This document shows, piece after piece, positions 4,764 to 20,383 of a stretch of DNA of 46,543 nt (position 1 is the first letter of the stretch; each line of letters begins with the position of its first letter). Source of the stretch: Paracoccaceae bacterium (GTDB taxonomy: Bacteria; Pseudomonadota; Alphaproteobacteria; Rhodobacterales; Rhodobacteraceae); NCBI GenBank assembly GCA_007128135.1, contig SKYA01000027.1, positions 1 through 46,543 of the forward strand, written 5' to 3'. The notes under the pieces are model-generated. The model was given only the letters and a program-made list of their open reading frames with translations. It made no database searches and had not been told where the DNA came from. A program made the translations under genes and the position numbers.

Positions 4764-6472
4764 CTACAAGAATTGCCCTGCTGGGCACTGCCGCAGCCAT
4801 CGTGCTGGCGCCTGCTGCGGCGCTCGCCGAACGTGAGCGCGGCTCGTCCGGCCACCTCAACATGATCTACTGGCAGGCCGTCTCGACGATGAATGTCTAT
4901 CTGTCGGGTGGTACCAAGGAAATGAACGCGGCCTCGATCGTGCTGGAGCCGCTGGCGCGCTTTGACAACAATGGCGAATTGACACCCTGGCTGGTGGACG
5001 AGATTCCGACTTTGGATAATGGCGGTGTTGCAGAAGACCTCAAGTCCATAACCTGGCGTCTGACCGAAGGCTTGCTCTGGTCGGACGGCACACCAGTCAC
5101 TTCGGCAGATGTTGTCTTCAGCTACGAGTACTGTACGCATCCAGAGGGCGGATGCGCCTATCGTGACCGTTTTGCCGGGATCGAAAGGGTGGAAGCTGTC
5201 GATGACCTGACAGTGACCGTACATTTCGAGGATGTGACCCCGAACCCCTATCTGCCTTTCGTCGGTGCAGGCTCGGTGATCATCCAGCAAGCGCAGTTTC
5301 AGGATTGCATGGGCGCGCGCGCGCCTGAATGCACCAATCAGAATTTCGCGCCTATCGGTACTGGCCCTTATGTGGTGACGAATTTCCGGCCCAATGACGT
5401 GGTCGAATTCGCGGCGAACGAGAATTACCGCGTACCGACCCAGCCCTATTTCGCGACCATCACCTGGGCGGGCGGCGGTGACGCGACCGGCGCAGCGCGC
5501 GCCGTGTTCCAGACTGGCGAGATGGACTATGCCTGGAACCTCCAGCTTGCGCCCGAAGTGATCGCGCAGATGGAAGCAGGTGGTCGGGGCACGCTGCTGG
5601 TGGATTTCGGCCCGCTGATGGAGCGGATCGAATTGAACTTCACCGACCCGTCGTCTGATCTGCCCGAGGGTGAGCGCGCGACCCGCGCGCATCCGCACCC
5701 GATCCTGTCGGATATTCGCGTGCGCGAGGCGCTCAGCCGCGCGATCGACCGCGAGTTGCTGACCGAGATCGGCTTTGGTCCGATGGGTCGCGCGACCTGC
5801 AACTTTATCGTCGCGCCTCCTGCTGTCGCCTCGACCAACAATGACGACTGCCTCGTGCAGGACATCGCGCGCGCAAATGAATTGCTGGACGAGGCCGGCT
5901 GGGAGCGTGGGTCTGATGGCATCCGCGTGAAGGATGGTCGTCGTCTTGAGTTGCTCTACCAGACCTCGACCAATGCCGTGCGTCAGGACTTCCAGGCACT
6001 GGTGCAACAGTGGTGGCGCGAAATCGGTGTCGAAACCCGTCTGCGCAATATCGACGCGGGCGTGTTCTTCGGATCGGATCCGGGCAGCCCTGACACCTAT
6101 CTGAAATTCTACGCCGATGTTCAGATGTATGCCTCGCTGTTCGAAGGCACCGACCCGACCCCGCACCTCGAGCAGCGCCGCTGCGGCCGCGAGCCGCAGC
6201 CTTCGACCCAGTGGCAGGGCCAGAACATCAACCGCTACTGCAACCCCGAGTATGACGCGCTCTGGGCCGAACTGAACCGGGAACCCGATCCCGAGCGCCG
6301 CAACGAGCTGGTCATCGCGCTTAACGACATGTTCGTGCAGGATTACGCGCATCTGCCGCTGGTTGCCCGTGGCCGTGTCTCGGCCGCCGCGAATACGGTT
6401 GGCGGCATCGTCCTGAACGTCTGGGATTCCGAACACTGGAACCAGGCGGAATGGTATCGCATCGAGGAGTGA
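4760..6472 (+). CDS. Peptide ABC transporter substrate-binding protein (SBP family 5)
   Basis: Periplasmic binding protein of the peptide importer, 570 residues. The first roughly 24 residues form a Sec signal peptide ([20 protein letters not shown] then ALA before ERERG). Family 5 features include the early [11 protein letters not shown] region with [20 protein letters not shown] and the interlobe [14 protein letters not shown]. It contains several cysteines, some probably in disulfides. It lies in third place in the operon, after the ATPases instead of first. It overlaps the preceding stop by ATGA and is followed by a strong stem-loop before the permease genes, an arrangement that can leave more binding-protein message than permease message. 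The ligand could be peptides, or acylated amino acids given the downstream amidohydrolase; this is inference. Confidence 0.93.
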
Positions 6473-6487
6473 TCTGCGGCTGATCCT

Positions 6488-6515
6488 GGCCTGTCCCGTT
6501 GATGCGGGGCAGGCC
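6488..6515 (+). promoter_or_regulatory. Stem-loop between binding-protein and permease genes
   Basis: GGCCTGTCCCG (6488-6498) pairs over all 11 positions, with one G-U, with CGGGGCAGGCC (6505-6515) around a TTGATG loop. It begins 16 nt after the binding-protein stop and ends 25 nt before the permease start. No T tract follows, so it is more likely an RNA-stabilising or partial-termination element than a full terminator. Confidence 0.6.
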
Positions 6516-6540
6516 GTATCTTGGTTCCGAGGTTATCCGT

Positions 6541-7548
6541 ATGCTCTCCTACACGTTGCGTCGCCTGGCTTTTGCCGTTCCGACCGTGCTCGTCATCAGC
6601 CTGATCGTGTTCCTGATGCTGGACATGGCCCCCGGTGACCCGACCGCCAGCCTGCCCCTGACCATCCCGCTGGAGGTGCGCGAACAGATCCGTATCTCGC
6701 TCGGGCTGGGAGAGCCGGTGATGGTGCGCTATTTCAAGTGGCTCTACATGATGTGCATCACCGAACCGCTGCACATCCTGCAGGGCATGACCGGCTGGAA
6801 CATCGCCCCAGAAGGCCCGCGCATCCTGTCCTGGCAGACCCGTTCGCCGGTGGGCGACATCCTGATCCAGCGCGTTCCGCAAACGCTGTGGGTCGTGGGC
6901 ATGGGCTATCTTTTCGGCATCCTGATCGCCCTGCCCATCGGTGTGATCTCGGCCTACCGCCAGTACAGCTGGTTCGATCAGGTCGGCACATTCGTGTCGA
7001 TGGTAGGCTTTTCCGTGCCGACCTTCTTCACCGGGATCGTGTTCATCCTGATCTTCGCGGTCTGGCTGGGCTGGTTTCCCTCCATGTACGATACCACACA
7101 TGTGGTGACAAACTGGGATAGCTTCCTCTTTCAGGTCAAGCAGATCGCCATGCCCGTCGCGGTTCTGGCCCTCTACAATGCCAGCCAGATCAGCCGCTTC
7201 ATGCGCGCCTCGATGCTCGACAATCTCAATCAGGACTATGTGCGCACCGCCCGGGCCAAGGGTCTTGGCGAAAAGACTGTTGTGCTCGTGCATGTGCTGC
7301 GCAACTCCATGATCCCGGTTGTCACGGTCATCGCCATCGGCATCCCGACCGTGTTCACCGGCGCAATCATCACCGAACAGATCTTCCGTGTGAACGGGCT
7401 GGGCGATGCGCTGATCCGCGCGATCTATGTCAGCGACTGGCCAATGGTCCAGACCATCACCTTCATCTTCGCCATCCTGATCGTGCTGTTCAACCTCATT
7501 GCCGATGTGCTCTACGGCATCCTTGATCCGAGGATCCGCTATGACTGA
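6541..7548 (+). CDS. Peptide ABC transporter permease, DppB type
   Basis: First membrane subunit of the peptide importer, about 335 residues. Start chosen at the ATG giving MLSYTLRRLAFAVPTVLVIS, the usual DppB beginning with its first membrane segment; an upstream in-frame start at 6499 would sit in the stem-loop region. Multiple hydrophobic segments are visible, and the ATPase-coupling loop is DYVRTARAKGLGEKTVVLVH. The family's BPD_transp_1 fold occupies the C-terminal two thirds. It overlaps the next permease by 8 nt through the same ATGACTGA sequence found at the DppD/DppF junction. Confidence 0.93.
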   Translation: MLSYTLRRLAFAVPTVLVISLIVFLMLDMAPGDPTASLPLTIPLEVREQIRISLGLGEPVMVRYFKWLYMMCITEPLHILQGMTGWNIAPEGPRILSWQTRSPVGDILIQRVPQTLWVVGMGYLFGILIALPIGVISAYRQYSWFDQVGTFVSMVGFSVPTFFTGIVFILIFAVWLGWFPSMYDTTHVVTNWDSFLFQVKQIAMPVAVLALYNASQISRFMRASMLDNLNQDYVRTARAKGLGEKTVVLVHVLRNSMIPVVTVIAIGIPTVFTGAIITEQIFRVNGLGDALIRAIYVSDWPMVQTITFIFAILIVLFNLIADVLYGILDPRIRYD

Positions 7549-8464
7549 TGCCGCCAAGCCCTTTTCGCCCGACGAGGCATTTCGTCCCCCGCGCAACCAG
7601 TGGTGGGATGTCTGGGACCAGTTCAAGACCCATCGCGGCGCGCTGGCCGGGCTGGCCGTGTTCGTCGCAATCGTGCTTTTCGTGCTCGTCGGCCCGCTGA
7701 TCTGGCAGGTGGACCCTGGCCAGATCAATATCCGCGAACGCAACCAGGGGGCCAGCTGGACCTACCCGCTGGGCACCGACCAGCTGGGCCGCGACCTGCT
7801 TGCGCGGCTGATGTATGGTGGCCGCGTCTCCGTCGCCGTAGGGCTGACCGCCATGTTGCTCGGGCTGGTCATCGGTACATTGCTCGGGGTGCTGGCTGGC
7901 TATTTCAGGTTGCTCGACAGCCCGCTGATGCGACTGACCGACCTCTTTCTTGCCCTGCCGCTGCTGCCGCTCCTGCTTATTCTCGTCACACTGTTTCGTG
8001 ACACGCTCGCCAAGACCTTCGGCGAGTCGATCGGCGTGTTCCTGCTGATCTGCTTTGCCATCGCCATCACAAGCTGGATGCAGACCGCACGCATCGTGCG
8101 CGGCGACGTTCTGGCGCTGAAAGAACGCGAATTCGTGCTGGCGGCGCGCTCCATCGGCACGCCATCGACACGGATCAACACCCGCCATATCCTGCCCAAT
8201 GTGCTGTCACCGATCATGGTTTCGGCCACGCTCGGAATCGCGAGCGCCATCATTACCGAATCCGCGCTTTCCTTCCTCGGCCTGGGTTTCCCGCCCGATT
8301 TCCCGACATGGGGGCGCATCCTCTATGACGGGCGCGACTGGATCGAGCAATACCCGGCGCGGGTGATCTGGCCCGGCGTGATGATCTCGCTTACGGTGCT
8401 CAGCGTGAACTATATCGGCGACGGGCTGCGCGATGCACTCGATCCACGCATTCGCGGACGCTGA
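7541..8464 (+). CDS. Peptide ABC transporter permease, DppC type
   Basis: Second membrane subunit of the peptide importer, about 307 residues. The N-terminus (FRPPRNQWWDVWDQFKTHRG) is the typical cytoplasmic segment leading to the first helix. The DppC hallmark GTDQLGRDLLARLMYGGRVS follows the first periplasmic loop. The coupling loop is EFVLAARSIGTPSTRINTRH, and the C-terminus ends DGLRDALDPRIRGR as expected. The start at 7541 gives an 8-nt overlap with DppB; the longer frame to 7499 runs through the DppB coding end and is not needed. Confidence 0.93.
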   Translation: MTDAAKPFSPDEAFRPPRNQWWDVWDQFKTHRGALAGLAVFVAIVLFVLVGPLIWQVDPGQINIRERNQGASWTYPLGTDQLGRDLLARLMYGGRVSVAVGLTAMLLGLVIGTLLGVLAGYFRLLDSPLMRLTDLFLALPLLPLLLILVTLFRDTLAKTFGESIGVFLLICFAIAITSWMQTARIVRGDVLALKEREFVLAARSIGTPSTRINTRHILPNVLSPIMVSATLGIASAIITESALSFLGLGFPPDFPTWGRILYDGRDWIEQYPARVIWPGVMISLTVLSVNYIGDGLRDALDPRIRGR

Positions 8465-8474
8465 CCCCTGCCCT

Positions 8475-8520
8475 TTCATCCTTGCCCAAATATCCCGGGG
8501 GTGTGGGGGCAGCGCCCCCA
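8475..8520 (+). repeat. Intergenic repeat with GC hairpin
   Basis: The element TTCATCCTTGCCCAAATATC is followed by CCGGGGGTG and a perfect hairpin TGGGGGC-AGC-GCCCCCA (8504-8520, 7-bp stem). It lies in the 74-nt gap between the DppC gene and the amidohydrolase. Its left part recurs in inverse orientation at 1-24. No T tract follows the hairpin, so strong termination is not expected, but it may attenuate transcription into the last gene. Confidence 0.6.
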
Positions 8521-8538
8521 CCTCCTGCCGAAAGGCAC

Positions 8539-9687
8539 ATGGCACCCATGAACCTTGACACCGACCCCAGCCTGGTTGCCCTGCGCCACCGCCTGCACGC
8601 CGCTCCCGAACTCTCCGGTGCCGAGGCGGGGACCGCGCGCCTGCTGCGGGAGATGCTGCAAGCCACGGACCCGGACCAGATCATCGAAGGGCTTGGCGGG
8701 CACGGGCTGGCGCTGGTCTATGACAGCGACATGTCCGGTCCGGGCGTGATGTTCCGCGCCGAACTGGATGCGCTGCCCATCGCCGAGCGGGGCCACGTTC
8801 CGCATGCCTCTACCCTTCCTGGCATCGCGCATCTGTGCGGGCATGACGGGCATATGGCCATCCTTGCCGGCCTGGCGCGACATCTGGGGCGTGATCGCCC
8901 TGCACGGGGCCGGGTGATCCTGCTGTTCCAGCCCGCCGAGGAGACAGGCGCGGGCGCGCGCGCGGTTCTGGCCGACCCTCGGTTTGACTCGCTGCGCCCT
9001 GACTGGGCCTTTGCTCTGCACAACATGCCCGGGCTTGGGCTGGGGCAGATCGCCGTCGCGGCAGGGCCGGCAAGTTGCGCCTCTGTCGGGTTGCACCTGC
9101 GCTGGCAGGGGCGCGAGGCCCATGCGTCCAGCCCCGAGACCGGCCTCTCGCCTGCGCACGCGGTCGCGTCACTCATGGCCGCACTTGCGCCTTTTTCCAC
9201 CCCCGGTCCCGTGACCGACGGCTTCCGCCTTGCCACGCTCTGCCATCTGTCGATGGGTGCGCGCGCCTTCGGCATCGCGCCTGCAAGCGCCGAGGCAATG
9301 GTGACGCTGCGCGCGATCAGCGATGCCGGACTGGAGCGATTCGAGCGCGATATCGCCACGCTCGCAGAGCATCAGGCAGGCGCGCTTGCGTTGCAGATCA
9401 GCCGTCACGACCATTTCAACGCATCCATAAACGATCCTCATGCCAGCCGGATCGTGGCACGTGCCGCTGATGCGCTCGGCCTTGTGAAGGGTTGTTTTGC
9501 CCTGCCAATGCGGGCGTCCGAGGATTTTGGTGCCTTCAGCGCCGTCACCCGAACAGCCCTGTTCTTCATTGGCGCGGGCGAGGGGCATCCTGCGCTGCAT
9601 GACCCGGAATACGACTTTCCGGATGCGCTGATCGCGCCCGCCCAAGCCCTGTTCACCCGCATCCTGAGCGAAGTGATGGCACATTAG
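8539..9687 (+). CDS. M20-family amidohydrolase (N-acyl-amino acid/hippurate hydrolase type)
   Basis: Metal-dependent hydrolase that removes acyl groups from amino acids or related amides in the cytoplasm. About 382 residues from ATG 8539 (or 8548), giving MAPMNLDTDPSLVALRHRLH. M20D hallmarks are HAAPELSGAE near the N-terminus, the metal ligands in CGHDGHMAIL, the catalytic and ligand acidic pair in QPAEETGAGA, LHNMPG, and the late SEDFGAFS. The dimerisation domain is present (about residues 180-290). It follows the peptide importer on the same strand, separated by a GC hairpin repeat, which suggests that imported acylated amino acids or short peptides are its substrates. The exact substrate cannot be assigned. 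Confidence 0.9.
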   Translation: MAPMNLDTDPSLVALRHRLHAAPELSGAEAGTARLLREMLQATDPDQIIEGLGGHGLALVYDSDMSGPGVMFRAELDALPIAERGHVPHASTLPGIAHLCGHDGHMAILAGLARHLGRDRPARGRVILLFQPAEETGAGARAVLADPRFDSLRPDWAFALHNMPGLGLGQIAVAAGPASCASVGLHLRWQGREAHASSPETGLSPAHAVASLMAALAPFSTPGPVTDGFRLATLCHLSMGARAFGIAPASAEAMVTLRAISDAGLERFERDIATLAEHQAGALALQISRHDHFNASINDPHASRIVARAADALGLVKGCFALPMRASEDFGAFSAVTRTALFFIGAGEGHPALHDPEYDFPDALIAPAQALFTRILSEVMAH

Positions 9688-9791
9688 GCCCTGTCCTTCA
9701 TGCGCAGCCAGACAAAAGGCGTGCTCTTGTGCTTTCAAGTGCGCGGGAGGCGCAAGTCGGGTTGCCGCTGTTGCGCGCCCTGCCCAAGGAC
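9688..9791. other. Convergent intergenic gap without recognised signal
   Basis: The amidohydrolase (plus) and the HlyD-type gene (minus) end toward each other 104 nt apart. I find no convincing T-tailed hairpin for either direction. Confidence 0.4.
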
Positions 9792-11099
9792 TCAGCTCTC
9801 GCGCAGGGCGCGGCTGAAATAGCTTGTCAGCGGGCGGGTCAGGTAGCGCCAGGGGCTCTGTGTGACGGTCTGCAGAAAGACCTCGACCGGCATGCCGGGC
9901 AGCAGTACCTGCGCGGGCAGGTGCGCAAGGCTTTCATCCAGAAAGGCCAGTTCCACACGGTAGAACCGCGTGCCATCCCTGGTGTCGGTGAAGGTATCTG
10001 CCGAGACATGGATGACCTCGGCCATGAGTTGCGGCATATCGCGCATGTCGAGTGCGGGCAGATAGAGCGTGGCCGACTGGCCCGGGGCGACCTGGTCGAT
10101 ATCGGCGGGCGCGATCCTTGCGGCAATGATCGGCGGCCGGTCCCGTGGCACGATATGCAGCGCTGGTTCTGCCGCGCGCAGGACTGCAAGCGGGGTCGTG
10201 AACTGCAATCCATGTACGATCCCGGCAACGGGCGCGCGAAGCTCAAGCCGTGCGATCCGCGTGCTCAGGGCGCGGTGGCGTTCGGCCAGTTCCAGTTCCT
10301 GCGCGGTAGTCTCGCGCAGTTCAAGCTGGGCCTCTTCCTGCCGCTGCGCCGAAAGCGAGAGGATCTGCTGGCCGATCTCGGCATGGCGCTCGGCCGCAAC
10401 CGCCCTCTCGGCCAGAAGCGCACCATGATTGCCCTCCAGCCGGGCGGCCTCGCGATCCAGCGCCAGTACCAGCGCGGCTTGTGTCAGTCCGCGCTCCAGC
10501 AGGCTGCGCTGGGCCGCGCGCTCTTCGGCCAACAGAGAAAGCTGGCGTTCCAGTGCCGCAAGCTGTGCGGATATGCCGTTCTTCTGCGCATCGATCTGGA
10601 CCTGGCGCTGTTCCAACTGTGCGATCAGTCTGGCCGTGGTTTCGCGCCGCGCCGCAAGCAGCCGGACCTGTGCGGCCATCTGCGCGCGGATCTGCGCGCC
10701 CGGATCGTGCCGGGTTGCGGCGGCCATCAGCATGTCCTCGAAAACGGGTTGTGCCGCGCCATCGCGCTCGGCTTCCAGCCTCGCCCGGCGGGCGAGGAGT
10801 TCGAAAAGCCGTGTTTCGACGATTGCAAGTTCCGACCGAAGCTGCGTCCCGTCCAGGCGCATCAGTACACTGCCTGCGCTGACCGCATCCCCCTCGGCCA
10901 CGAGGATTGCCTCGACAACGCCGCCATCCGGATGCTGAACGACCTGGTGCTGCTGCGCGACTTCCAGCGCGCCGGTGGCGATCACGGCACCCGCAATTCG
11001 CGCCAGCGCTACCCAGGACCCGAAGCCCAGCACCAGCAGCCCAATCGCCACAACCGCCAGCAGCAGATGGTTGCGTGCGCTGAACGCAGCGTCCCTCAT
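9792..11099 (-). CDS. Type I secretion membrane fusion protein, HlyD family
   Basis: Periplasmic adaptor that bridges an inner-membrane ABC exporter and an outer-membrane TolC-like channel. 435 residues. A single N-terminal membrane anchor (HLLLAVVAIGLLVLGFG, about residues 10-30) is followed by the first half of the lipoyl/barrel domain (VVQHPDGGVVEAILVAEGDA). A long alpha-helical hairpin rich in Ala, Glu, Arg and Gln spans roughly residues 100-260. The second half (LRAPVAGIVHGLQ) and a beta-barrel end with QVLLPGMPVEVFLQT follow. Its start overlaps the stop of the ABC exporter by ATGA, so the two are one operon. No TolC homologue lies beside it. Confidence 0.93.
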   Translation of the reverse strand: MRDAAFSARNHLLLAVVAIGLLVLGFGSWVALARIAGAVIATGALEVAQQHQVVQHPDGGVVEAILVAEGDAVSAGSVLMRLDGTQLRSELAIVETRLFELLARRARLEAERDGAAQPVFEDMLMAAATRHDPGAQIRAQMAAQVRLLAARRETTARLIAQLEQRQVQIDAQKNGISAQLAALERQLSLLAEERAAQRSLLERGLTQAALVLALDREAARLEGNHGALLAERAVAAERHAEIGQQILSLSAQRQEEAQLELRETTAQELELAERHRALSTRIARLELRAPVAGIVHGLQFTTPLAVLRAAEPALHIVPRDRPPIIAARIAPADIDQVAPGQSATLYLPALDMRDMPQLMAEVIHVSADTFTDTRDGTRFYRVELAFLDESLAHLPAQVLLPGMPVEVFLQTVTQSPWRYLTRPLTSYFSRALRES

Positions 11100-12940
11100 C
11101 GGCGCATCTCGGGCTGGCGATTATCCCAAGGGAAGCGGATCAGCGCCGGGTGGGTGATCTGCTCGCCGTCGGAGGGCGGAGGGTGATGGACGCGCAGGAT
11201 GTCGCCACTGTTGCGCGCGACCTTGCGCAGCACCTGCTCGACAGGGCCAAGAGCCGTGATGCGCCCGACGTCAAGCTTCATCAGCAGGTCGCATTCGGCA
11301 ATGGCAGAGGGCCGATGCGCCATGATCAGGACGCTTGCCCCGCGCGCCTTTGCCGCGCGTATCGCTGCATTCAGCGCGCGCGAACCCTCATCGTCGAGAC
11401 TTGCGTTGGGCTCGTCCAGGATAAGCAATGCAGGGGACCCGTAGAATGCGCGCGCAAGTCCTATGCGTTGAACCTGCCCACCCGAGAGCCCGCCGCCCTC
11501 GGGACCGATCAGGGTGTCATATGCATCCGGAAGTGTCAGGATCAGTTCATGCGCACCCGCGGCCATCGTGGCCGCGAGTACCGCGCTGTCCTGCGCGTCC
11601 GGATCGAAACGCGCGATATTGTCGCGCAACGAGCCGCAGAACAGGCCGACCCGCTGCGGCAGATAGCCGATGGCGCGACCCAGTTGCTCTGGCGGGTACT
11701 GGTCGAGCCGTGCGCCGTCCAGCCTGATCTCGCCCCGCGTGGCCGACCAGACCCCGACCAGCGCCTTTGCCAGCGAGGATTTTCCCGCACCAGAGGGGCC
11801 GATCACGCCCAGCGCCTGCCCCGGCTCGAGAGTGAAGCCGACATCGCTCAGGACCAGACCATCGCCGGGTGAACTGACAGGCAGGCGCAGGCCCAGTCCT
11901 TTCACACTCAGCCGCCCTTGGGGCCCGGGAAGGGCCATGCGCTGGGGCCGGGGCGGGGCCGCGGCCAGCACCTGGCGGATGCGCTGCCATGCGGCGCGCG
12001 CGGCCTGAACCTGCGTCCAACCGCCGATGATCTGGTCCAGCGGCCCGAGTGCGCGGCCGAGTATGATCGAGGCCGCGATCATGGCGCCGGGGGACAAGGC
12101 GTCGCGCAGGACCAGCAAGGCCCCCGCTGCCAGCATCGCCGATTGCAGAAACAGACGCAGCGCGCGCGCAGTCGCGCCGAAGCGGCCGATTCCGTCGCTT
12201 GCGTCAAGCGCGGCAGCCAGCGCAGCGCGGCGCTGGTCGCGCCAGCGCGCGAGTGCAGCATCCTCCATGCCCAGCGCGCGCAACTGCAGGGCGTCCTGCG
12301 CGATCTGCTGTCCCGTCTGCTCGGCGCATTGCACCCGCATCTGTCCTGTCGTGATCCTCGCGCGATTGCCCATATTGTTTGCCATGCCCAGCCCTGCCAG
12401 AGCCAGTGCCGAGAGCAGCGCCAGCAGACCAAGCCAGGGATGCAGCAGGGCGATCACGCCGATGAACAGCGGCACCCATGGAAAATCGAATACGGCGAGT
12501 GCGACGGGTGACCCGGCCAGCCCCTGCAGCAGTGACAGATCCTGCGACGTGCGTGCGGTCGCCGCGCAGCACTGCGGGGACGCGCGCAGCGCGGCTTTGA
12601 AAACAGGCCGGTCCAGCCGGTCCTGAACCTGCGCCCCCAGCCGGGCTGCGATCCGGGCGCGGGCATGATCCAGCAGACCGAAGATGAGGTAGAGAAAGGC
12701 CACAATCGCGAAAAGCGCCAGCAGCGTGGCCTCGGACCGGCTGGAGAGCACGCGGTCATAGACCTGCAACATGAAGACCGGGCCGGTAAGCATAAGAAGA
12801 TTGGTGAACACGCTGATTGCCGCCACGCTCCACAGCATCCCGCGCATGGGGGGAGTCAGCAGGCCGGGCGCTGCCTGATGACCGGACAGGCCCACCGGCC
12901 AGGCGGCCCCTGTTGCTGTTGCCTGATAGCGCTTTGTCAT
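11096..12940 (-). CDS. Type I secretion ABC permease/ATPase (PrtD-like)
   Basis: Fused membrane and ATPase subunit of a type I secretion system, about 614 residues from ATG 12940 (an ATG at 12976 would add 12 residues). The N-terminal half is the exporter membrane domain, with segments near LWSVAAISVFTNLLMLTGPV and LFIGVIALLHPWLGLLALLS. The C-terminal ATPase has Walker A GPSGAGKSS, signature LSGGQVQRIGLARAF and Walker B LLILDEPNASLDDEG. The PNASLDDEG form fits the PrtD/HasD-like branch. There is no obvious N-terminal C39 peptidase domain, so cargo would be recognised by a C-terminal signal and not by leader cleavage. No RTX-repeat cargo was found in this window. Confidence 0.92.
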   Translation of the reverse strand: MTKRYQATATGAAWPVGLSGHQAAPGLLTPPMRGMLWSVAAISVFTNLLMLTGPVFMLQVYDRVLSSRSEATLLALFAIVAFLYLIFGLLDHARARIAARLGAQVQDRLDRPVFKAALRASPQCCAATARTSQDLSLLQGLAGSPVALAVFDFPWVPLFIGVIALLHPWLGLLALLSALALAGLGMANNMGNRARITTGQMRVQCAEQTGQQIAQDALQLRALGMEDAALARWRDQRRAALAAALDASDGIGRFGATARALRLFLQSAMLAAGALLVLRDALSPGAMIAASIILGRALGPLDQIIGGWTQVQAARAAWQRIRQVLAAAPPRPQRMALPGPQGRLSVKGLGLRLPVSSPGDGLVLSDVGFTLEPGQALGVIGPSGAGKSSLAKALVGVWSATRGEIRLDGARLDQYPPEQLGRAIGYLPQRVGLFCGSLRDNIARFDPDAQDSAVLAATMAAGAHELILTLPDAYDTLIGPEGGGLSGGQVQRIGLARAFYGSPALLILDEPNASLDDEGSRALNAAIRAAKARGASVLIMAHRPSAIAECDLLMKLDVGRITALGPVEQVLRKVARNSGDILRVHHPPPSDGEQITHPALIRFPWDNRQPEMRR

Positions 12941-14002
12941 GCCTGTGCCTCGGATCAGCGTGCCAGGCAGCGGCAAGAGCCACCGCAGGCGCGGTCATTT
13001 CCCAGCATCATGCCCGCGCTGTCTTTATGTGGCGTTAATGCCTTCGCATTATCCTCTTTCCGGGGTGGCGCGCAGGAATTCGCCCACGATGCCGGATCCG
13101 ACCCGCAGCGCCCTCGCCATGAACCGGTGAACCGACACGGCGGAAAAAGCTGCGGCCAGAGCCCGAGCACTCCGGGCCTGCGCCTGCCCCGCCGGACAGG
13201 AGCCGCATCGCCTTCCGCATCCTCCTACAGTTGATCGATACTGGCCTTGATGCCGAGGGCGTTATGGTGGGCGCCTCCCTGGGTCAGCGGTTCCCTTCCC
13301 CAAAATTCCGACTCTCGGGTGAGGGGAACAACCAGATACCGGGCTGGCCGGGGCGCGATTCGGTCCATCGCAGGCCAGAAGGCGCCTGATCGGGTAGCAG
13401 GGCATGACAGTATTCTCGAAGCTGCGGGCCATGACGTGTCGTTGGGCGGGAAGGGTGATGAGCGGTGCGGACAGGTGTATCTTCATGGCCGGTGACCAGA
13501 GCGCGCTGAGACTTGAGCCCACCTTTTCCGGCAGTGATCGGCCGAAACCCCATCAGGACCTAAGGTGCCGGGGAATAAGCGCAGCGCAACTCGTCTTCGT
13601 CGATACCATCCGCGCCTGATCCGACGCTGTCGCCACATTCGGCGCGGACGAAACACGTATTCTTGCCGTCGTCCCGGGACCGGCGGACAAGACATCTTCT
13701 GACCGGGATCCGTGCCGGGTGTTCTGCGCGATCAATCCTGCCTCGGCGGCCCGGGTGCAACCCCGATCGGCAGCGATTTGCCGTGGCACGACCATGCGGC
13801 AGGATCCAGCCGCGCGGAAAAGGACATCATGAGCGGCAAGGGTGCCCTCTCGGGGGCAGGCGCCAGGATCGGGTCACGGCGCCATTGCCCCCCTCGCGCC
13901 TCCCTGCCGCACTCGGCCCGCGCCACATGATTTGCGTTTGGAATGGCCATCTGCCGCAGCCCCGAACCACCCGTCAGGGCACCGGCTTCCTTGCAGGGGA
14001 GC
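12941..14002. other. About 1 kb with no convincing gene
   Basis: Between the type I exporter and the P-loop protein gene lie 1062 nt in which every frame is broken into short pieces. None reads as a protein I recognise, and none combines a good ribosome-binding site with plausible composition. A broken inverted repeat pairs 13290-13295 (GTTCCC) with 13324-13329 (GGGAAC), with partial pairing inward. One plus-strand fragment reads LVFVDT near 13590-13610, loosely like a transposase catalytic strand, but its context does not support that. The promoter of the exporter operon must lie near 12950-13060; I cannot place it. Decayed mobile DNA or a lost gene is possible but not shown. Confidence 0.5.
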
Positions 14003-15337: not shown

Positions 15338-16027
15338 ATGACCGGTTTCCGGCACCCGTCAGAGGGATATGTCTTCGTGGTGACCTATGGGAGGTCGGGC
15401 TCGACACTGGTTCAGAACCTTCTGAACGCCTTGCCCGGGTGCCTGATCCGGGGCGAGAACAACAATGCCCTGTTCCCCCTCTACAAGAGTTGGCGCGCCC
15501 TGGTTCGCAGCCCTGACATCTGCCGGATGCGGCAGGCGCGCGAGGTGTCTGACCCTTCGCATCCCTGGTTCGGTGCCGAAGCGATCGATACCGACAGCTA
15601 TGCGCGCAGCCTCTGCGCGGGCTTTGCCAGCCAGGTGCTGCGCCCGCCGCCGCAGGTGCGGCTGTGCGGATTCAAGGAAATCCGGACAATCTCGCCCGAG
15701 GCCGATTTCATGGAGTATCTCGCTTTTCTGAACGCATATTTCCCCCGGCCACGATTCATCTTCAACACCCGCAACCATGACGATGTGGTGAAATCTTCCT
15801 GGTGGCGCCAGCATGAACCGGCAGAGGTCCGCCAGATGATGCGCTCGGCCGAAGCTGTCTTCGATACGTTCGCAGCCGCGCATCCCGACCGCAGCATCCG
15901 GTTGCATTACGATGATTATGTGAGGAATCACAGGCAGTTCGAGCCGCTCTTCGAGCTTCTGGGCCACCGCCCGCCGCCCGAACGGATGCATGCCGTGCTC
16001 AGCACCCGGCTCACGCATGCGACCTGA
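15338..16027 (+). CDS. Sulfotransferase-like protein
   Basis: 229 residues. The N-terminal strand-loop VVTYGRSGSTLVQNLLNALP matches the 5'-phosphosulfate-binding loop of PAPS-dependent sulfotransferases. RFIFNTRNHDDVVKSSWW matches the 3'-phosphate-binding segment (normally R..RDP..V.S; here the RDP is RNH). It would transfer sulfate from PAPS to a carbohydrate or lipid acceptor. A strong ribosome-binding site AAAGGAGGG lies just before the ATG. No signal peptide or membrane segment is seen, so it acts in the cytoplasm or at the inner membrane face. It is followed, 111 nt on, by the large glycosyltransferase on the same strand, which suggests sulfation of the glycan made by that enzyme. Confidence 0.8.
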   Translation: MTGFRHPSEGYVFVVTYGRSGSTLVQNLLNALPGCLIRGENNNALFPLYKSWRALVRSPDICRMRQAREVSDPSHPWFGAEAIDTDSYARSLCAGFASQVLRPPPQVRLCGFKEIRTISPEADFMEYLAFLNAYFPRPRFIFNTRNHDDVVKSSWWRQHEPAEVRQMMRSAEAVFDTFAAAHPDRSIRLHYDDYVRNHRQFEPLFELLGHRPPPERMHAVLSTRLTHAT

Positions 16028-16138
16028 GCCACCCCGCCCCGCATGAGTGCCCGAAACACCGGCCCGAGGTCCCGACAAATGCAGAACGCAGCCAGCCGAC
16101 CAGTTCACAACACAGGCCCCCTGGTGCCGGGAGCAGAA

Positions 16139-19100
16139 ATGATCCTGTGTCACGAGATCGACCTTCGGACGCAGGCATTCGTCAATATCGATTTCGTGAT
16201 GGCGGATCAGACAGGCATTCCCCTGCATCTGTCTCTGCGGCGGGATGCCGGATTGCTGGTTCTCAATCAGCTGGGCCCGAAGAAGTGGTGTCGCGAGATC
16301 GTGCTCAAGGCCGGACTGAGATGCGCCCTGCATGATCTGCAGCTTGAATTCTCGCGCGATCTTCTGGGCCGGCTGGCAGTGACCCTCTGGCTGGACAGTG
16401 ACAGGCTCGGACGGATCGACGCCTATCCGCGCGCGGACCCTGCGGGTCCGCGTGGGCTGCGCCGCGGATTTCCCGCCCTTGGGCGGATTGCAGGTGTCAC
16501 ATGGCCGGAAGGATTGCGCAGCATGCGGATTCTCTGGCCGGGAACCGCTGCAACTCCGGTCCTGACCAACCGGCTGGAACTTGTCTGGAACACGGCAGAT
16601 CAGGAGGCTGAGCTGGACCTGCACCTGAATGAGGCACCGCTTGATTTCCTGCCGCTGCCCGGTGCCGGACCCGAGGCCGCGCGTTCCCTTCGCACGGCGT
16701 TGTTGCCAGGTCGAATCTGGCGCGATGCCATGGCGGGACAGGCGCGCCTCACGGCGCGCTCAGGTGGTCGTGCCGTGGAAATCTCGGTTGATATCCCCAT
16801 GCTTCTGGACCGGATTTCAAGCCCGGAGGCCTTCTGGCAGATTCGCAACGACCCGATCATCCGGCTGCACATGCTGGAGCATGTGCATCACGCCGACCTC
16901 TGGGAGCAGGTGTCCGACCCGGTGCGCGATCTTCTCGGGGCAACCGCCAGGCGGCTCGGCAGCAAGGTCCTGTCGCTGCCCAAACACCCTGTCCGCCCCG
17001 GCGCCGAAACCCCAGACCCAGCCCCAGCCCCAGCCCGGAAGTCCCCCGCAGATACCTGCGATGCGTTCCATGCAGGAATTGCCCGTGATCGTCATGCCGA
17101 CCCGATATGGCTGCTCGACACTCTGATTCGGCAGAATGCCCTCAAACCCGGAGAGGTGAGGCATCTCGCGCTGATGCTCAGCGAATGGTTCTGCCTGCAT
17201 GGCGATCCGCTTGACCTGGCGCAACTTGCAGCACGACACGGGGTTGGCACATGGCAGGAAGACGCGACCCCCTGGGGCTCCGTCGCCGGGCTGCCGATGC
17301 TGTGGGGGCAGGGCAACTGGTCCGCCATCGAGGCCGTATTGCGCAACTACCCCCGTCAGGCCACCCACTGGCTGGTGACTCCGGCGCTGGGCTGGGTCGG
17401 AACTGCCCTGGCAGAGAAGCGACCTGATCTCGACGGGCGCTACCTGCCCGAGGCCCGGCAGATCAGCCTGATGACGGCCCTGCTGGAACTCATCGCCGAA
17501 CTGTCCTCTTCCTATTGGGCCCAGACTCCGTGCACGCGGCTGATGTCGGGCGTTCTGGATATTCTGGACGGCCTGCTTCTGCTGCCGGACTGGTGCGCGG
17601 ACTGGTATCTGGAACTCAGCCTGCGTGCCTATGGGCTGCGCCCGGAATTCTGGGAGCAGATCTGCACGCGTCCGGCACTTGCGGAACACCCCCTGCTGGC
17701 CCAGACCGGGCATGCCTTCGATGCCTTGCAGACCGCGCTCGCATCCGGGAAGGGGGCAGTCCTGTGGGAGGCCGCCCGTCCCTTCCTGCAGCGCAGATGT
17801 GCCGGGCACGAGATGCTGCGCCGCATGGTCCTGTCGCCGCATGCGACCTCCAGAGCCTTTGCCCGGCGCCCCGACCTGGCCAGCCTGTCCCCGGTCCTGA
17901 CGCGGCAGGAGATCGAGGAGACCGCACTGCGCTGGCTCGCCTTTCCGCGCAGCCAGGAAGCGCGCGATGTTATCGAACTGCGACCGGGTGAACCGGTTCA
18001 CATCGCTGCCTGCAACGGATTGCGCAACGCGGCGGCAGACATCGCGCGCACGGCATTTTCCCGGGCCATGGCCAGCCTCGGAGAGCGGGTCCATCATTGT
18101 CTCGCTCTGCGCCAATGCATTGCATCCCTGCCCGAGCAAGATGTTCGCGGTCTGACGCGTATGGCGCGCGCCCTGAGCACGGAAGACGCAGGATTCGTCG
18201 GAATCGCGGCCCTGCTTGCCCTCGCCGAGGCTGCATCGCGCCATGACGCGACAGCGCTGGCACAGGGCTGGTGCGCGGCACTGCGCGAGCAGATGGAGCG
18301 AATCGGCAGTGACAGGCTTGTCCTCGCGCAGGCCCCGGCGCTGGCGCTGGAGCGGTTCGCCGCGCTCTGCCGGGACAGCGAACTGAGGTCGAAACTTGCT
18401 CCCTGGCTGCGGCCTGCGCGTGACAGGCCGATCAACGAAGACCCGATCGCCGCACAGATTCGCGCGGCGGCGAATCCATTTGCCGATACGCTGGTTGCGC
18501 TGATTTCCTGCCATGGCAATCTCGACACGCGCGCGCGCGACTGTCGTGCCGCCTGGGGGGACGCGCTGGCACGGCTGGGCATACCGCTGATCACGGTTGT
18601 CGGGCGTCGGGCCGATCTGCCGACGGCAGGCCGCGAGAGCTTTGACGGCACGCTTCTGCAACTCGATGCGCCCGACAGTTATGAAGGATTGCCGCAGAAA
18701 TCGCTGGCACTGGCCCGATGGGTGCTGGAGCGGACAGGCTTCTCGCGCGTGCTCAAGATAGACGATGACTGCCTGCTCGATGCTGCTGCCTATTTCAGTG
18801 ACCCGACCTGCCTGACCCGGCCGTATTACGGCCGCCCGCTGCATCGCGCTCCGGGCACGATGGATCGCGCCTGGCACATGGCGCGCGCGCAATCGCAGCG
18901 TGGGCGGCTGGAACTCGACAAATCTCCCGAACCTTCGATTTATGCAGATGGCAGCACCGCCTATATGCTCTCGCGACCCGCGCTTGCTTCGCTGGCGCGG
19001 GCGCGAACGAGCCCGCGTGGGAGGGCACTGGAGCAGGTCTCCTTCATGGAAGACAAGCTTGTCGGGGATCTTCTCAGCCTTGAGGGGATCGCGGTCTCGG

Positions 19101-20383
19101 GTCAGAATTACGATGTGGCCGTGCTTCGCAAACCGGCAGGAGGGCTTGATCCGCTATCGCTATACGAAAACAGTTTTCAGCCCTTCGCCGGCGCTCCGGT
19201 CAAGCTGGCGCATCTGGACACCGGCGGCGGGGTGATGGACAGGGCACGCGAGGCGCTTGGCAGTCCCTGGCCGACCCAGATGAAAATATGGCCCGGCATG
19301 GTGCCCGCACAGACTGGCTGGGCCAAGAACGCGCTTGATCTGGTCAGCCCCCCCGACCGCCTGGAGCAGGCGCGCGCGGCCGAAGTCGCTGTCGTGGCTG
19401 TCATGCGCAACGAATGTTTCATGCTCGATCACTTCCTCGAGCATTATCGCGGCCTTGGTGTGGGGGCATTCCTGATCGTGGATAATGGCTCGGATGACGG
19501 CACGCTCGAGCATCTTGTTGCGCAGAAGGATGTCTCGGTATTCTCGACCGACACGCCCTACAGCCAGTCAACCTACGGGGTGCAATGGCAGGAGGCACTC
19601 GTCGCACAGTTCCGCACCGGACGCTGGTCCCTGCTGGCTGACGCGGATGAACTGGCGTTCTGGTGCTTGCCTGATGGCAATGGGCGTGTGCCGGGGAATC
19701 TGCCGCAACTGCTGGCCGGGAGCGATTTCGCCGGAGTGCAGGCCGTGCGGATGCTGATGCTCGACCTCTACCCCAAGGGGCGTCTGTCCGAGGCACAGTT
19801 CGTTCGCGCACCTTTCCTTGAAGCCGATCATGTCGATCACACCCCGCTCTGCCGGGACTGGCAGGGGCGTGGCCCATGGTCCAATGCCGATACGGTGACC
19901 AGTGCCCTGCGGCATCGGCTGATGAATGATCGCGGCACACCGGCGCGAGCCAACCTGTTCGTCGCGCAGAAATATGCGCTGCTGAAATACCATCCCCTCA
20001 TGCGGCTGTCGGCGGGTTTGCATTACATCACCGGTGCGCGGGTCGCGACGCGCGAACTTGCGTTCGGGCATTTCAAGTATCATGCGGCATTTCTCGCCAA
20101 GGCCGAGGACGAGGTCGCGCGCGGCCAGCATTTCAACAATGCCGAGGAATATCGCGCTTATCTCGGACTGCGGGCCGAGGCGCGCGAGACGCTCTACGAC
20201 CCGGCCCGTTCGGTGCCTCTGTCCCTGTGCCCCACCGTGCAGGCCCTGTGCCGGTCTCAGAGCGCCTCGAAACCGAAATCCGCCGGGATGCGGTCACGCC
20301 CCTCGAGGACGAGATCGGCCATGATCTGGGCCAATGCCGGGGCCATTGCAAAGCCGATCTTGAATCCGCCATTGAACACATAA
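16139..20383 (+). CDS. Giant glycosyltransferase with galectin-like N-terminal domain
   Basis: About 1414 residues from ATG 16139, which has GGGAG 5 nt upstream; in-frame ATGs at 16043 and 16079 have weaker sites. Residues 1-105 resemble a galectin fold: HLSLR, then N 9 residues after the Arg, W 7 later and E 3 later (WCRE). A Pro/Ala linker (about 295-305) precedes a long helical part (305-780). A first transferase-like module carries LISCHGN and KIDDDC, with a DXD-type motif at 875-877. A second module (from about 1085) begins VVAVMRNECFMLDHFLEHYR, with VDNGSDDGT and LLADADELAFW at 1166-1176, as in family 2-type (Glyco_tranf_2_4) enzymes. Cytoplasmic; acceptor unknown. The last 42 codons are antisense to the end of the next gene. 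A second start choice does not change the domain reading. Confidence 0.82.
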   Translation: MILCHEIDLRTQAFVNIDFVMADQTGIPLHLSLRRDAGLLVLNQLGPKKWCREIVLKAGLRCALHDLQLEFSRDLLGRLAVTLWLDSDRLGRIDAYPRADPAGPRGLRRGFPALGRIAGVTWPEGLRSMRILWPGTAATPVLTNRLELVWNTADQEAELDLHLNEAPLDFLPLPGAGPEAARSLRTALLPGRIWRDAMAGQARLTARSGGRAVEISVDIPMLLDRISSPEAFWQIRNDPIIRLHMLEHVHHADLWEQVSDPVRDLLGATARRLGSKVLSLPKHPVRPGAETPDPAPAPARKSPADTCDAFHAGIARDRHADPIWLLDTLIRQNALKPGEVRHLALMLSEWFCLHGDPLDLAQLAARHGVGTWQEDATPWGSVAGLPMLWGQGNWSAIEAVLRNYPRQATHWLVTPALGWVGTALAEKRPDLDGRYLPEARQISLMTALLELIAELSSSYWAQTPCTRLMSGVLDILDGLLLLPDWCADWYLELSLRAYGLRPEFWEQICTRPALAEHPLLAQTGHAFDALQTALASGKGAVLWEAARPFLQRRCAGHEMLRRMVLSPHATSRAFARRPDLASLSPVLTRQEIEETALRWLAFPRSQEARDVIELRPGEPVHIAACNGLRNAAADIARTAFSRAMASLGERVHHCLALRQCIASLPEQDVRGLTRMARALSTEDAGFVGIAALLALAEAASRHDATALAQGWCAALREQMERIGSDRLVLAQAPALALERFAALCRDSELRSKLAPWLRPARDRPINEDPIAAQIRAAANPFADTLVALISCHGNLDTRARDCRAAWGDALARLGIPLITVVGRRADLPTAGRESFDGTLLQLDAPDSYEGLPQKSLALARWVLERTGFSRVLKIDDDCLLDAAAYFSDPTCLTRPYYGRPLHRAPGTMDRAWHMARAQSQRGRLELDKSPEPSIYADGSTAYMLSRPALASLARARTSPRGRALEQVSFMEDKLVGDLLSLEGIAVSGQNYDVAVLRKPAGGLDPLSLYENSFQPFAGAPVKLAHLDTGGGVMDRAREALGSPWPTQMKIWPGMVPAQTGWAKNALDLVSPPDRLEQARAAEVAVVAVMRNECFMLDHFLEHYRGLGVGAFLIVDNGSDDGTLEHLVAQKDVSVFSTDTPYSQSTYGVQWQEALVAQFRTGRWSLLADADELAFWCLPDGNGRVPGNLPQLLAGSDFAGVQAVRMLMLDLYPKGRLSEAQFVRAPFLEADHVDHTPLCRDWQGRGPWSNADTVTSALRHRLMNDRGTPARANLFVAQKYALLKYHPLMRLSAGLHYITGARVATRELAFGHFKYHAAFLAKAEDEVARGQHFNNAEEYRAYLGLRAEARETLYDPARSVPLSLCPTVQALCRSQSASKPKSAGMRSRPSRTRSAMIWANAGAIAKPILNPPLNT

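Follow-up and report, generated by a model that had tools for sequence, protein, structure and literature searches.

A galectin-type domain at the N-terminus of a predicted multi-domain glycosyltransferase of Rhodobacteraceae

The 46,543 nucleotides of contig SKYA01000027.1 (positions 1 to 46,543, assembly GCA_007128135.1, a Paracoccaceae bacterium), referred to here as the window, contain a long open reading frame (ORF) in which two glycosyltransferase modules are preceded by a stretch resembling the sugar-binding site of animal galectins. Is this a galectin domain and, if so, what would it do on a bacterial glycosyltransferase? The fold, homology, conserved pocket, domain order and gene neighbourhood were computed, and the answer that we consider probable is that a true galectin-family domain acts as an integral carbohydrate-binding module within a cytoplasmic enzyme of several domains, holding a beta-galactoside, or a close sugar, for the attached transferases. 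The features on which this rests are as follows.

16043..20383, + strand: galectin-glycosyltransferase ORF, 1446 residues from ATG 16043 (ORF list; full-length homologues)
16139..16534, + strand: galectin-type jelly-roll domain, the N-terminal ~130 residues (profile, PF00337, AlphaFold2 model, Foldseek)
16226..16240, + strand: HLSLR, the His and Arg of the galectin HxNxR with Ser at the Asn position (sequence; 73-row conservation)
16259..16267, + strand: V-x-N, Val and Asn of the second contact strand (73-row and 51-row conservation)
16286..16297, + strand: W-C-R-E, the stacking Trp and the Glu of the galectin WGxE motif (73-row conservation)

Translation from ATG 16139 gives 1414 residues, and a GGGAG stretch lies just upstream of this codon while none is evident at ATG 16043, the former being the likelier start. 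The contact residues lie exactly where the original prediction had placed them, with the codon for the His of HLSLR at 16226 (residue 62 onward in the 1446-residue ORF), Asn at 16265, Trp at 16286 and Glu at 16295; it was also correct in its two departures from the galectins, the Ser that replaces the middle Asn of HFNPR and the lack of an Arg two residues after the Glu. A further match that it had not mentioned is the Val two residues before the Asn, presumably the counterpart of Val59 of galectin-1, so that the window keeps six of the eight residues that we take to be the galectin ligand contacts (H, N, R, V, N, W, E, R). A six-frame search of the window (93,082 positions) finds the five residues at their exact spacing a single time, and 9.6e-5 occurrences are expected in this protein; when the protein was shuffled 2000 times, a looser galectin-like spacing turned up in 8 of the shuffled sequences. 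On these figures the motif by itself would be suggestive of a galectin, not proof of one.

Homology to galectins is seen most clearly with profiles of the family. The window domain alone, searched with phmmer against 177,635 PDB sequences, gave three matches up to an expectation value (E) of 10, all of them galectins, the best at E 0.025. A profile built from seven rows (the window and six relatives, the divergent L019 being left out) matched galectins at E 6.2e-12, and one from 66 rows (the window and 65 of 72 relatives, with L026, L028, L029, L036, L075, L077 and L091 left out by eye) did so at E 1.2e-19. The two alignments are not independent, at least five of the relatives found with the single sequence being the same records as loci of the large scan. 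For both profiles the best 60 PDB entries (of 162 and of 200, respectively, to E 10) were galectins, galectin fusions and galectin-type entries, among them the fiber protein 2wsu and eosinophil lysophospholipase, which we take to be galectin-type under other names. PF00337, the Pfam galectin family, was matched by five of the seven rows at E≤10 (best 1.9e-8) and by 53 of the 66 rows at E≤0.01, a limit at which no other family appeared, though the window's own row had no match. PF13737 and PF06439 were each found in one of the seven rows, only at E 0.12 and 0.32, and were set aside as stray.

The AlphaFold2 model of the domain has a mean predicted local distance difference test score (pLDDT) of 95.6 and a predicted template modelling score (pTM) of 0.88. 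The best 50 of its 855 Foldseek matches in the PDB (to E 10) are all galectins or galectin-related lectins at 12-18% identity, with human galectin-7 reaching a TM score of 0.71 normalised to the query and 0.75 to the target. In the model the contact residues occupy three consecutive strands, with His38, Ser40 and Arg42 in strand 35-42, Val49 and Asn51 in strand 47-53, and Trp58 and Glu61 in strand 58-65, and because the fold matches that of galectins they are predicted to cluster on one face, as they do there. The N-terminal galectin-type domain that had been proposed from the motif is therefore upheld both by the profiles and by the predicted jelly-roll.

The pocket is strongly conserved. Of 73 aligned domains (the window and 72 relatives), 70 retain the His, Arg, Asn, Trp and Glu together, which would seem a stronger argument than the chance arithmetic given above. 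By position the counts are 71 for the His, 69 for the Ser that stands for Asn, 71 for the Arg, 73 for the Asn, 73 for the Trp and 72 for the Glu; in the 69 domains that fit the spacing pattern the Asn always follows the Arg by 9 residues and the Trp follows the Asn by 7-9. In a 51-row alignment of long proteins (the window and 50 of 73 long relatives) the Arg, Asn, Trp and Glu are invariant (51/51) and the Val is 90% conserved. Conservation in this alignment reaches 90% at just nine of the 130 domain positions, and seven of these are galectin contacts (H, S for N, R, V, N, W and E); with the contact list that we assume, after galectin-1, the hypergeometric chance of so large an overlap is 2.7e-9. 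Since most of the conserved positions are contact positions, the sequences indicate that the pocket is under selection, beyond the fold alone. The Ser at the Asn position is also found in a solved galectin, in the HISVR of Toxascaris leonina (4hl0, PDB alignment).

Behind the galectin domain the protein continues into two enzymatic modules, as had been claimed, the first of them scoring just under the Pfam cut-off in the window. The parts are arranged in the family as galectin domain, small beta domain, helical solenoid, glycosyltransferase family 31 (GT31)-like domain and glycosyltransferase family 2 (GT2)-type domain.

16562..16792, + strand: small beta-rich domain after the galectin domain (model residues 150-226; no Pfam match)
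16793..18469, + strand: helical, solenoid-like region with one low-confidence loop (model residues 227-785; no Pfam match)
18482..19255, + strand: GT31-like domain of GT-A fold with DDD and ED motifs (PF01762; profile; Foldseek)
19406..19654, + strand: core of the GT2-type domain with a DAD motif (PF13704, E 5.2e-20)

PF01762 (Galactosyl_T, GT31) scores 22.7 bits in the window against a cut-off of 23, and is matched by all seven full-length rows at E≤0.001 (best 1.5e-10); a profile of the region finds human B3GalT6 at E 1.7e-8. GT31 also includes enzymes that use donors other than galactose. All seven full-length rows match PF13704 as well. Across 74 rows (73 relatives longer than 1300 residues and the window) the DDD and ED residues of the GT31-like domain (D, D, D, E, D), which we take to be the catalytic motifs, a metal-binding DxD and an acidic ED, are invariant, as are the D, D and E of the DAD-E of the GT2-type domain. 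A model of 1061 residues built on the 51-row alignment (pLDDT 89.5, pTM 0.78) has the galectin domain, small beta domain, helical solenoid and GT-A domain in this order, and its best 50 Foldseek matches comprise galectin-type lectins, three GT31 enzymes (B3GalT5 first, then B3GalT6 and C1GalT1) and one ciliary protein, 7som_F (E 1.1e-3, probability 0.87), which was taken as a chance match to the solenoid. Within the helical region of ~560 residues and the small beta domain, W202, H256, F512, R606, P611 and G696 (long-alignment numbering) are invariant in the 51 rows. No membrane segment was found in the window protein, no stretch of 19 residues rising above 1.48 on the Kyte-Doolittle scale.

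A scan of a genome collection found 97 relatives, nearly all in Rhodobacteraceae, the best 80 of which are the basis of the family counts. The galectin domain is present at E<1e-5 in 72 of these 80 loci, including one in which it forms a separate ORF (L096) and one in which it is cut by the contig end (L029); of the eight without a match, six begin at a contig edge and two (L099 and L102) lack the domain. In 50 of the 72 ORFs it starts before residue 150; a further 5 have its start between residues 150 and 500, and in the remaining 17 it begins after residue 500, with a GT2-like motif, picked by eye, ahead of it in 15 of these. In L096, from Falsigemmobacter intermedius, two ORFs (5983-6609 and 6818-9931, + strand) encode the galectin domain and the transferase part separately, through either a split gene or a frameshift. 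In L099 (5482-9585, + strand), from Falsirhodobacter deserti, the GT31 and GT2 parts are kept and the N-terminus has no contact motif; it is possibly a decayed galectin domain (E 0.13 with the 66-row profile).

The distribution was followed in several sets of genomes. With the single sequence, 11 of 394 genomes of the bacterial family, its own included, gave a match, and seven of the ten others were kept. L010 (internal stops), L011 (by eye a penicillin-binding protein) and L012 (an ORF of 102 residues) were dropped as chance or unrelated matches, and L002 (36% identity, one internal stop) was also dropped. The 66-row profile matches 16 of the 394, again with its own. PF00337 reaches its curated cut-off of 22.1 bits in 10 of the 394, in frames of 1363-2015 residues in nine and of 554 in one, and in a single genome, of the same family, among 398 of a phylum-wide sample; in 14 well-known genomes used as a control it gave no match at E≤0.001. 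A class-wide profile search matched 2 of 385 genomes, the match outside the own genome (E 0.009, three stops) being discounted. Outside Rhodobacteraceae the domain was seen in Methylobacterium (L094), where PF00337 scores 27.3 bits, and in Bordetella petrii (L095), where its 18.4 bits fall short of the cut-off, while Sulfurisoma (L102) has a homologue without it. The galectin domain is thus rare and patchy, and centred on Rhodobacteraceae. Two relatives on plasmids were confirmed to have it. A phage origin drew no support from three viral-contig matches, each covering only ~45 query residues of the GT31 stretch.

Galectin-like domains also occur on shorter proteins, the following of which form a family of ~670-730 residues with a galectin-like N-terminus and a GT2 domain.

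L120, 502-2613, - strand: HITFR...LNS...WGEE followed by a PF00535 GT2 domain
L121, 557-2743, - strand: HFVLR...LNS...WGDE followed by a PF00535 GT2 domain
L122, 6001-8016, + strand: a further member

These proteins of ~700 residues are matched more weakly (domain E from 2.4e-10 to 5.3e-7 when three sequences were searched), and were also found by the 66-row profile with genome E-values of 2.5e-7, 2.0e-5 and 9.5e-4; L120 matches PF00337 at E 0.0047, while L121 does not match it even at E 1. A plasmid homologue in Paroceanicella, 78% identical to L120, has glf as its neighbour and a pyruvyl transferase gene nearby. On a contig of 3.9 kilobases (kb), L019 (206-2356, - strand, 717 residues) combines a galectin-like domain with a GT31-like DDDC stretch and has no Pfam match. 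Since the forms of ~700 residues keep the His-Arg-Asn-Trp-Glu order, their sequences suggest that the galectin domain may be a reusable module.

Neighbours were counted at 81 loci (the 80 and the window) with flanks of up to 6 kb, some contigs being cut, so that the counts are lower bounds; clusters were built from ORFs filtered by codon position. One example each of UDP-galactopyranose mutase (Glf), the KpsT-like, KpsM-like and RTX clusters was checked against Pfam, while the labels GT4, GT2, sulfotransferase b, c and d, and KpsE-like were given by eye, the last having no Pfam match. In the window the relevant neighbours are these.

15338..16027, + strand: sulfotransferase (PF13469, E 8.5e-14), ending 15 bases before ATG 16043 and 111 before ATG 16139
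11096..12976, - strand: type I secretion-like ABC exporter (PF00664 and PF00005), its cluster near 11 of the 81 loci, window included
9792..11099, - strand: HlyD-type membrane fusion protein adjoining the exporter (PF13437, E 1.8e-9)

We infer that the sulfotransferase and galectin-glycosyltransferase genes belong to the same operon. Near 23 of the 81 loci, window included, there is a sulfotransferase of the same type as in the window, and near 51 a sulfotransferase-like gene of any kind; a GT4-like gene is found near 32, Glf near 16 and a separate GT2-like gene near 29, mostly just upstream. Capsule-type exporter parts lie near 18 loci, and an RTX protein or a type I ABC exporter near 30, RTX-repeat proteins being near 19. 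Downstream in the window are flavin adenine dinucleotide (FAD)-oxidoreductase and methyltransferase genes, a pair that presumably resembles MnmC/MnmD.

On pS3B of Thalassococcus sp. S3 a relative's gene lies among gmd, GDP-fucose synthase, glf and ABC/sugar transporter genes, and on a plasmid of Tropicibacter oceani it lies with rfbABCD, a sulfotransferase and an ABC exporter; RefSeq names the plasmid relatives glycosyltransferase or glycosyltransferase family 2 protein, with no galectin domain mentioned in the rows listed. These records (L123 and L124, NZ_CP022305.1 and NZ_CP124619.1) are of plasmids of 50-63 kb with GDP-fucose or rhamnose genes and a polysaccharide-type ABC exporter, recalling the biofilm plasmids of roseobacters. 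In Sulfitobacter an rfbABCD plasmid is linked to biofilm functions, according to one report (PMC13386836).

What we infer beyond this concerns the cytoplasmic location, the sugar binding and its ligand, the reactions and their order, and the fate of the product. The galectin domain would grip a galactose-containing growing chain in the cytoplasm, near the GT31-like domain, which would add a sugar, galactose by its resemblance to the closest solved structures, the beta-1,3-galactosyltransferases. The GT2-type domain would add another sugar, with the helical solenoid as a spacer, and the products of neighbouring genes would sulfate and export the chain. The resulting glycan is probably displayed on the surface or secreted, and in many cases sulfated, leaving by capsule-type ABC export or carried by a secreted protein.

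Several observations weigh against this reading. The window domain alone has no Pfam match (E≤5) and no NCBIfam match, PF00337 finds nothing in its own genome even at E 10 (a limit at which it matches 7 of the 14 control genomes, none above the cut-off) and matches only 3 of the 7 full-length rows at E≤0.001, and G179, the only other listed genome from its genus, has no match with the 66-row profile; the galectin assignment needs the family profile or the structure. A convergent or chance resemblance, in which another beta-sandwich carries a galectin-like motif, would account for the sub-threshold score of the window sequence, but is extremely improbable given profiles at E 6.2e-12 and 1.2e-19 with galectin-type proteins among the matches listed, PF00337 in 53 of 66 rows and the match in fold. 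Among the ORFs examined in the window (138-30004) there are the sulfotransferase and the type I exporter, and no capsule exporter was recognised. Also unfavourable is that L099 and L102, two of the 74 loci intact at the N-terminus, have both transferases and no recognisable galectin domain, and the domain is therefore not strictly required.

The remaining difficulties concern the pocket. Of the three domains that do not keep all five residues, L029 is truncated at the end of its contig, L043 lacks one contact, its His being changed, and L081 two (Arg and Glu changed). The Arg two residues after the Glu, missing in the window, is kept in only 11 of the 73 domains and the Gly after the Trp in 15, so that classical lactose binding may be weak or altered; with the final Arg lost in most domains the fine specificity may also differ from that of classical galectins. 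It is from this that a non-galactoside ligand on a real galectin fold, such as an N-acetylhexosamine, a uronic or a sulfated sugar, draws its strength, together with the Ser for Asn in 69 of 73, the sulfotransferase-like genes near 51 of 81 loci and the presence, among the Foldseek matches listed, of the fungal galectin-related lectin CGL3 with chitotriose, a protein that binds chitooligosaccharides. We think such a ligand unlikely, however, since the Trp, Asn, Arg, His and Glu are retained, the same Ser is found in the Toxascaris leonina galectin, the GT31-like domain is nearest to beta-1,3-galactosyltransferases among the solved structures listed, and UDP-galactopyranose mutase lies near 16 of the 81 loci. 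The two altered canonical contacts and the two homologues without the domain could also mean that the fold is a structural or protein-protein docking piece that binds no sugar, and some animal galectin relatives do not bind lactose; this would seem quite improbable, as no positions of the domain are better conserved than those of the pocket (Arg, Asn, Trp and Glu in 51 of 51), which is not expected of a scaffold.

How does a galectin domain that holds a sugar for its own transferases compare with known systems? Classical galectins are stand-alone lectins or tandem domains. Those of animals, nematodes and fungi (galectin-7, Toxascaris leonina, CGL3) share with the bacterial domain the jelly-roll and the His-Arg-Val-Asn-Trp-Glu set, and the Arg-to-Asn spacing of 9 is, according to the original prediction, also that of galectin-7; the bacterial domain differs in its transferase module, in the Ser for the middle Asn and in the absent last Arg. 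Polypeptide N-acetylgalactosamine-transferases carry a ricin-type lectin domain that steers the transferase through a sugar already on the acceptor, a functional analogy only, as both their lectin fold and their transferase are unrelated to those described here. Bacterial multi-domain GT2 capsule glycosyltransferases exist, and have in common with this family the polysaccharide loci and PF13704. A eukaryotic precedent is found in land plants, where the galactosyltransferases (GALTs) likewise have the galectin domain first and the GT31 domain after it.

The plant literature describes GALT1-GALT6 as carrying PF00337 and PF01762 in one chain (PMC4687291, PMC8667403) and as forming beta-1,3-galactose or hydroxyproline-galactose linkages (PMC8667403, PMC4687291, PMC5225481). 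The pairing of the two domains is thus less unprecedented than the original prediction suggested. No bacterial galectin-glycosyltransferase was among the open-access literature matches listed, although Pfam or InterPro may already list bacterial PF00337 automatically. PMC13084444 describes galectins as animal and fungal lectins, and in a survey of eukaryotes land plants alone had genes that combine the two domains (PMC5225481). The plant GALTs are predicted type II Golgi membrane proteins (PMC4687291), unlike the window protein with its lack of a membrane segment, and eight plant hydroxyproline GALTs have 338-741 residues (PMC8667403) where most of the bacterial ORFs have ~1330-2060. The bacterial protein further differs in the ~650 residues between its galectin and GT31 domains and in the extra GT2-type domain. 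On account of the missing membrane segment and the gap of ~650 residues it is not counted as a plant-type GALT and shares only the same logic. The role of the galectin domain in plants was stated to be unknown in 2021, with the holding of a galactose offered as an idea, in these papers (PMC8667403, PMC4687291, PMC5225481).

A broader proposal, possible if somewhat short of probable, is that galectin domains are a bacterial glycan-assembly module, placed on at least three unlike transferase architectures in Rhodobacteraceae (galectin-solenoid-GT31-GT2, galectin-GT2 of ~700 residues and a short galectin-GT31) and reading the enzyme's own product chain. The joining of galectin and GT31 in both bacteria and land plants, by independent fusion or by transfer, would then be a sign that holding the product is a general mechanism. 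With a soluble bacterial version the role of the plant galectin domain, be it acceptor holding, chain measuring or processivity, would come within reach of purified protein and simple genetics. Such a version would also offer a way into the surface glycans of Rhodobacteraceae, and the bacterial domains may be a possible root, or recipient, in the evolution of galectins.

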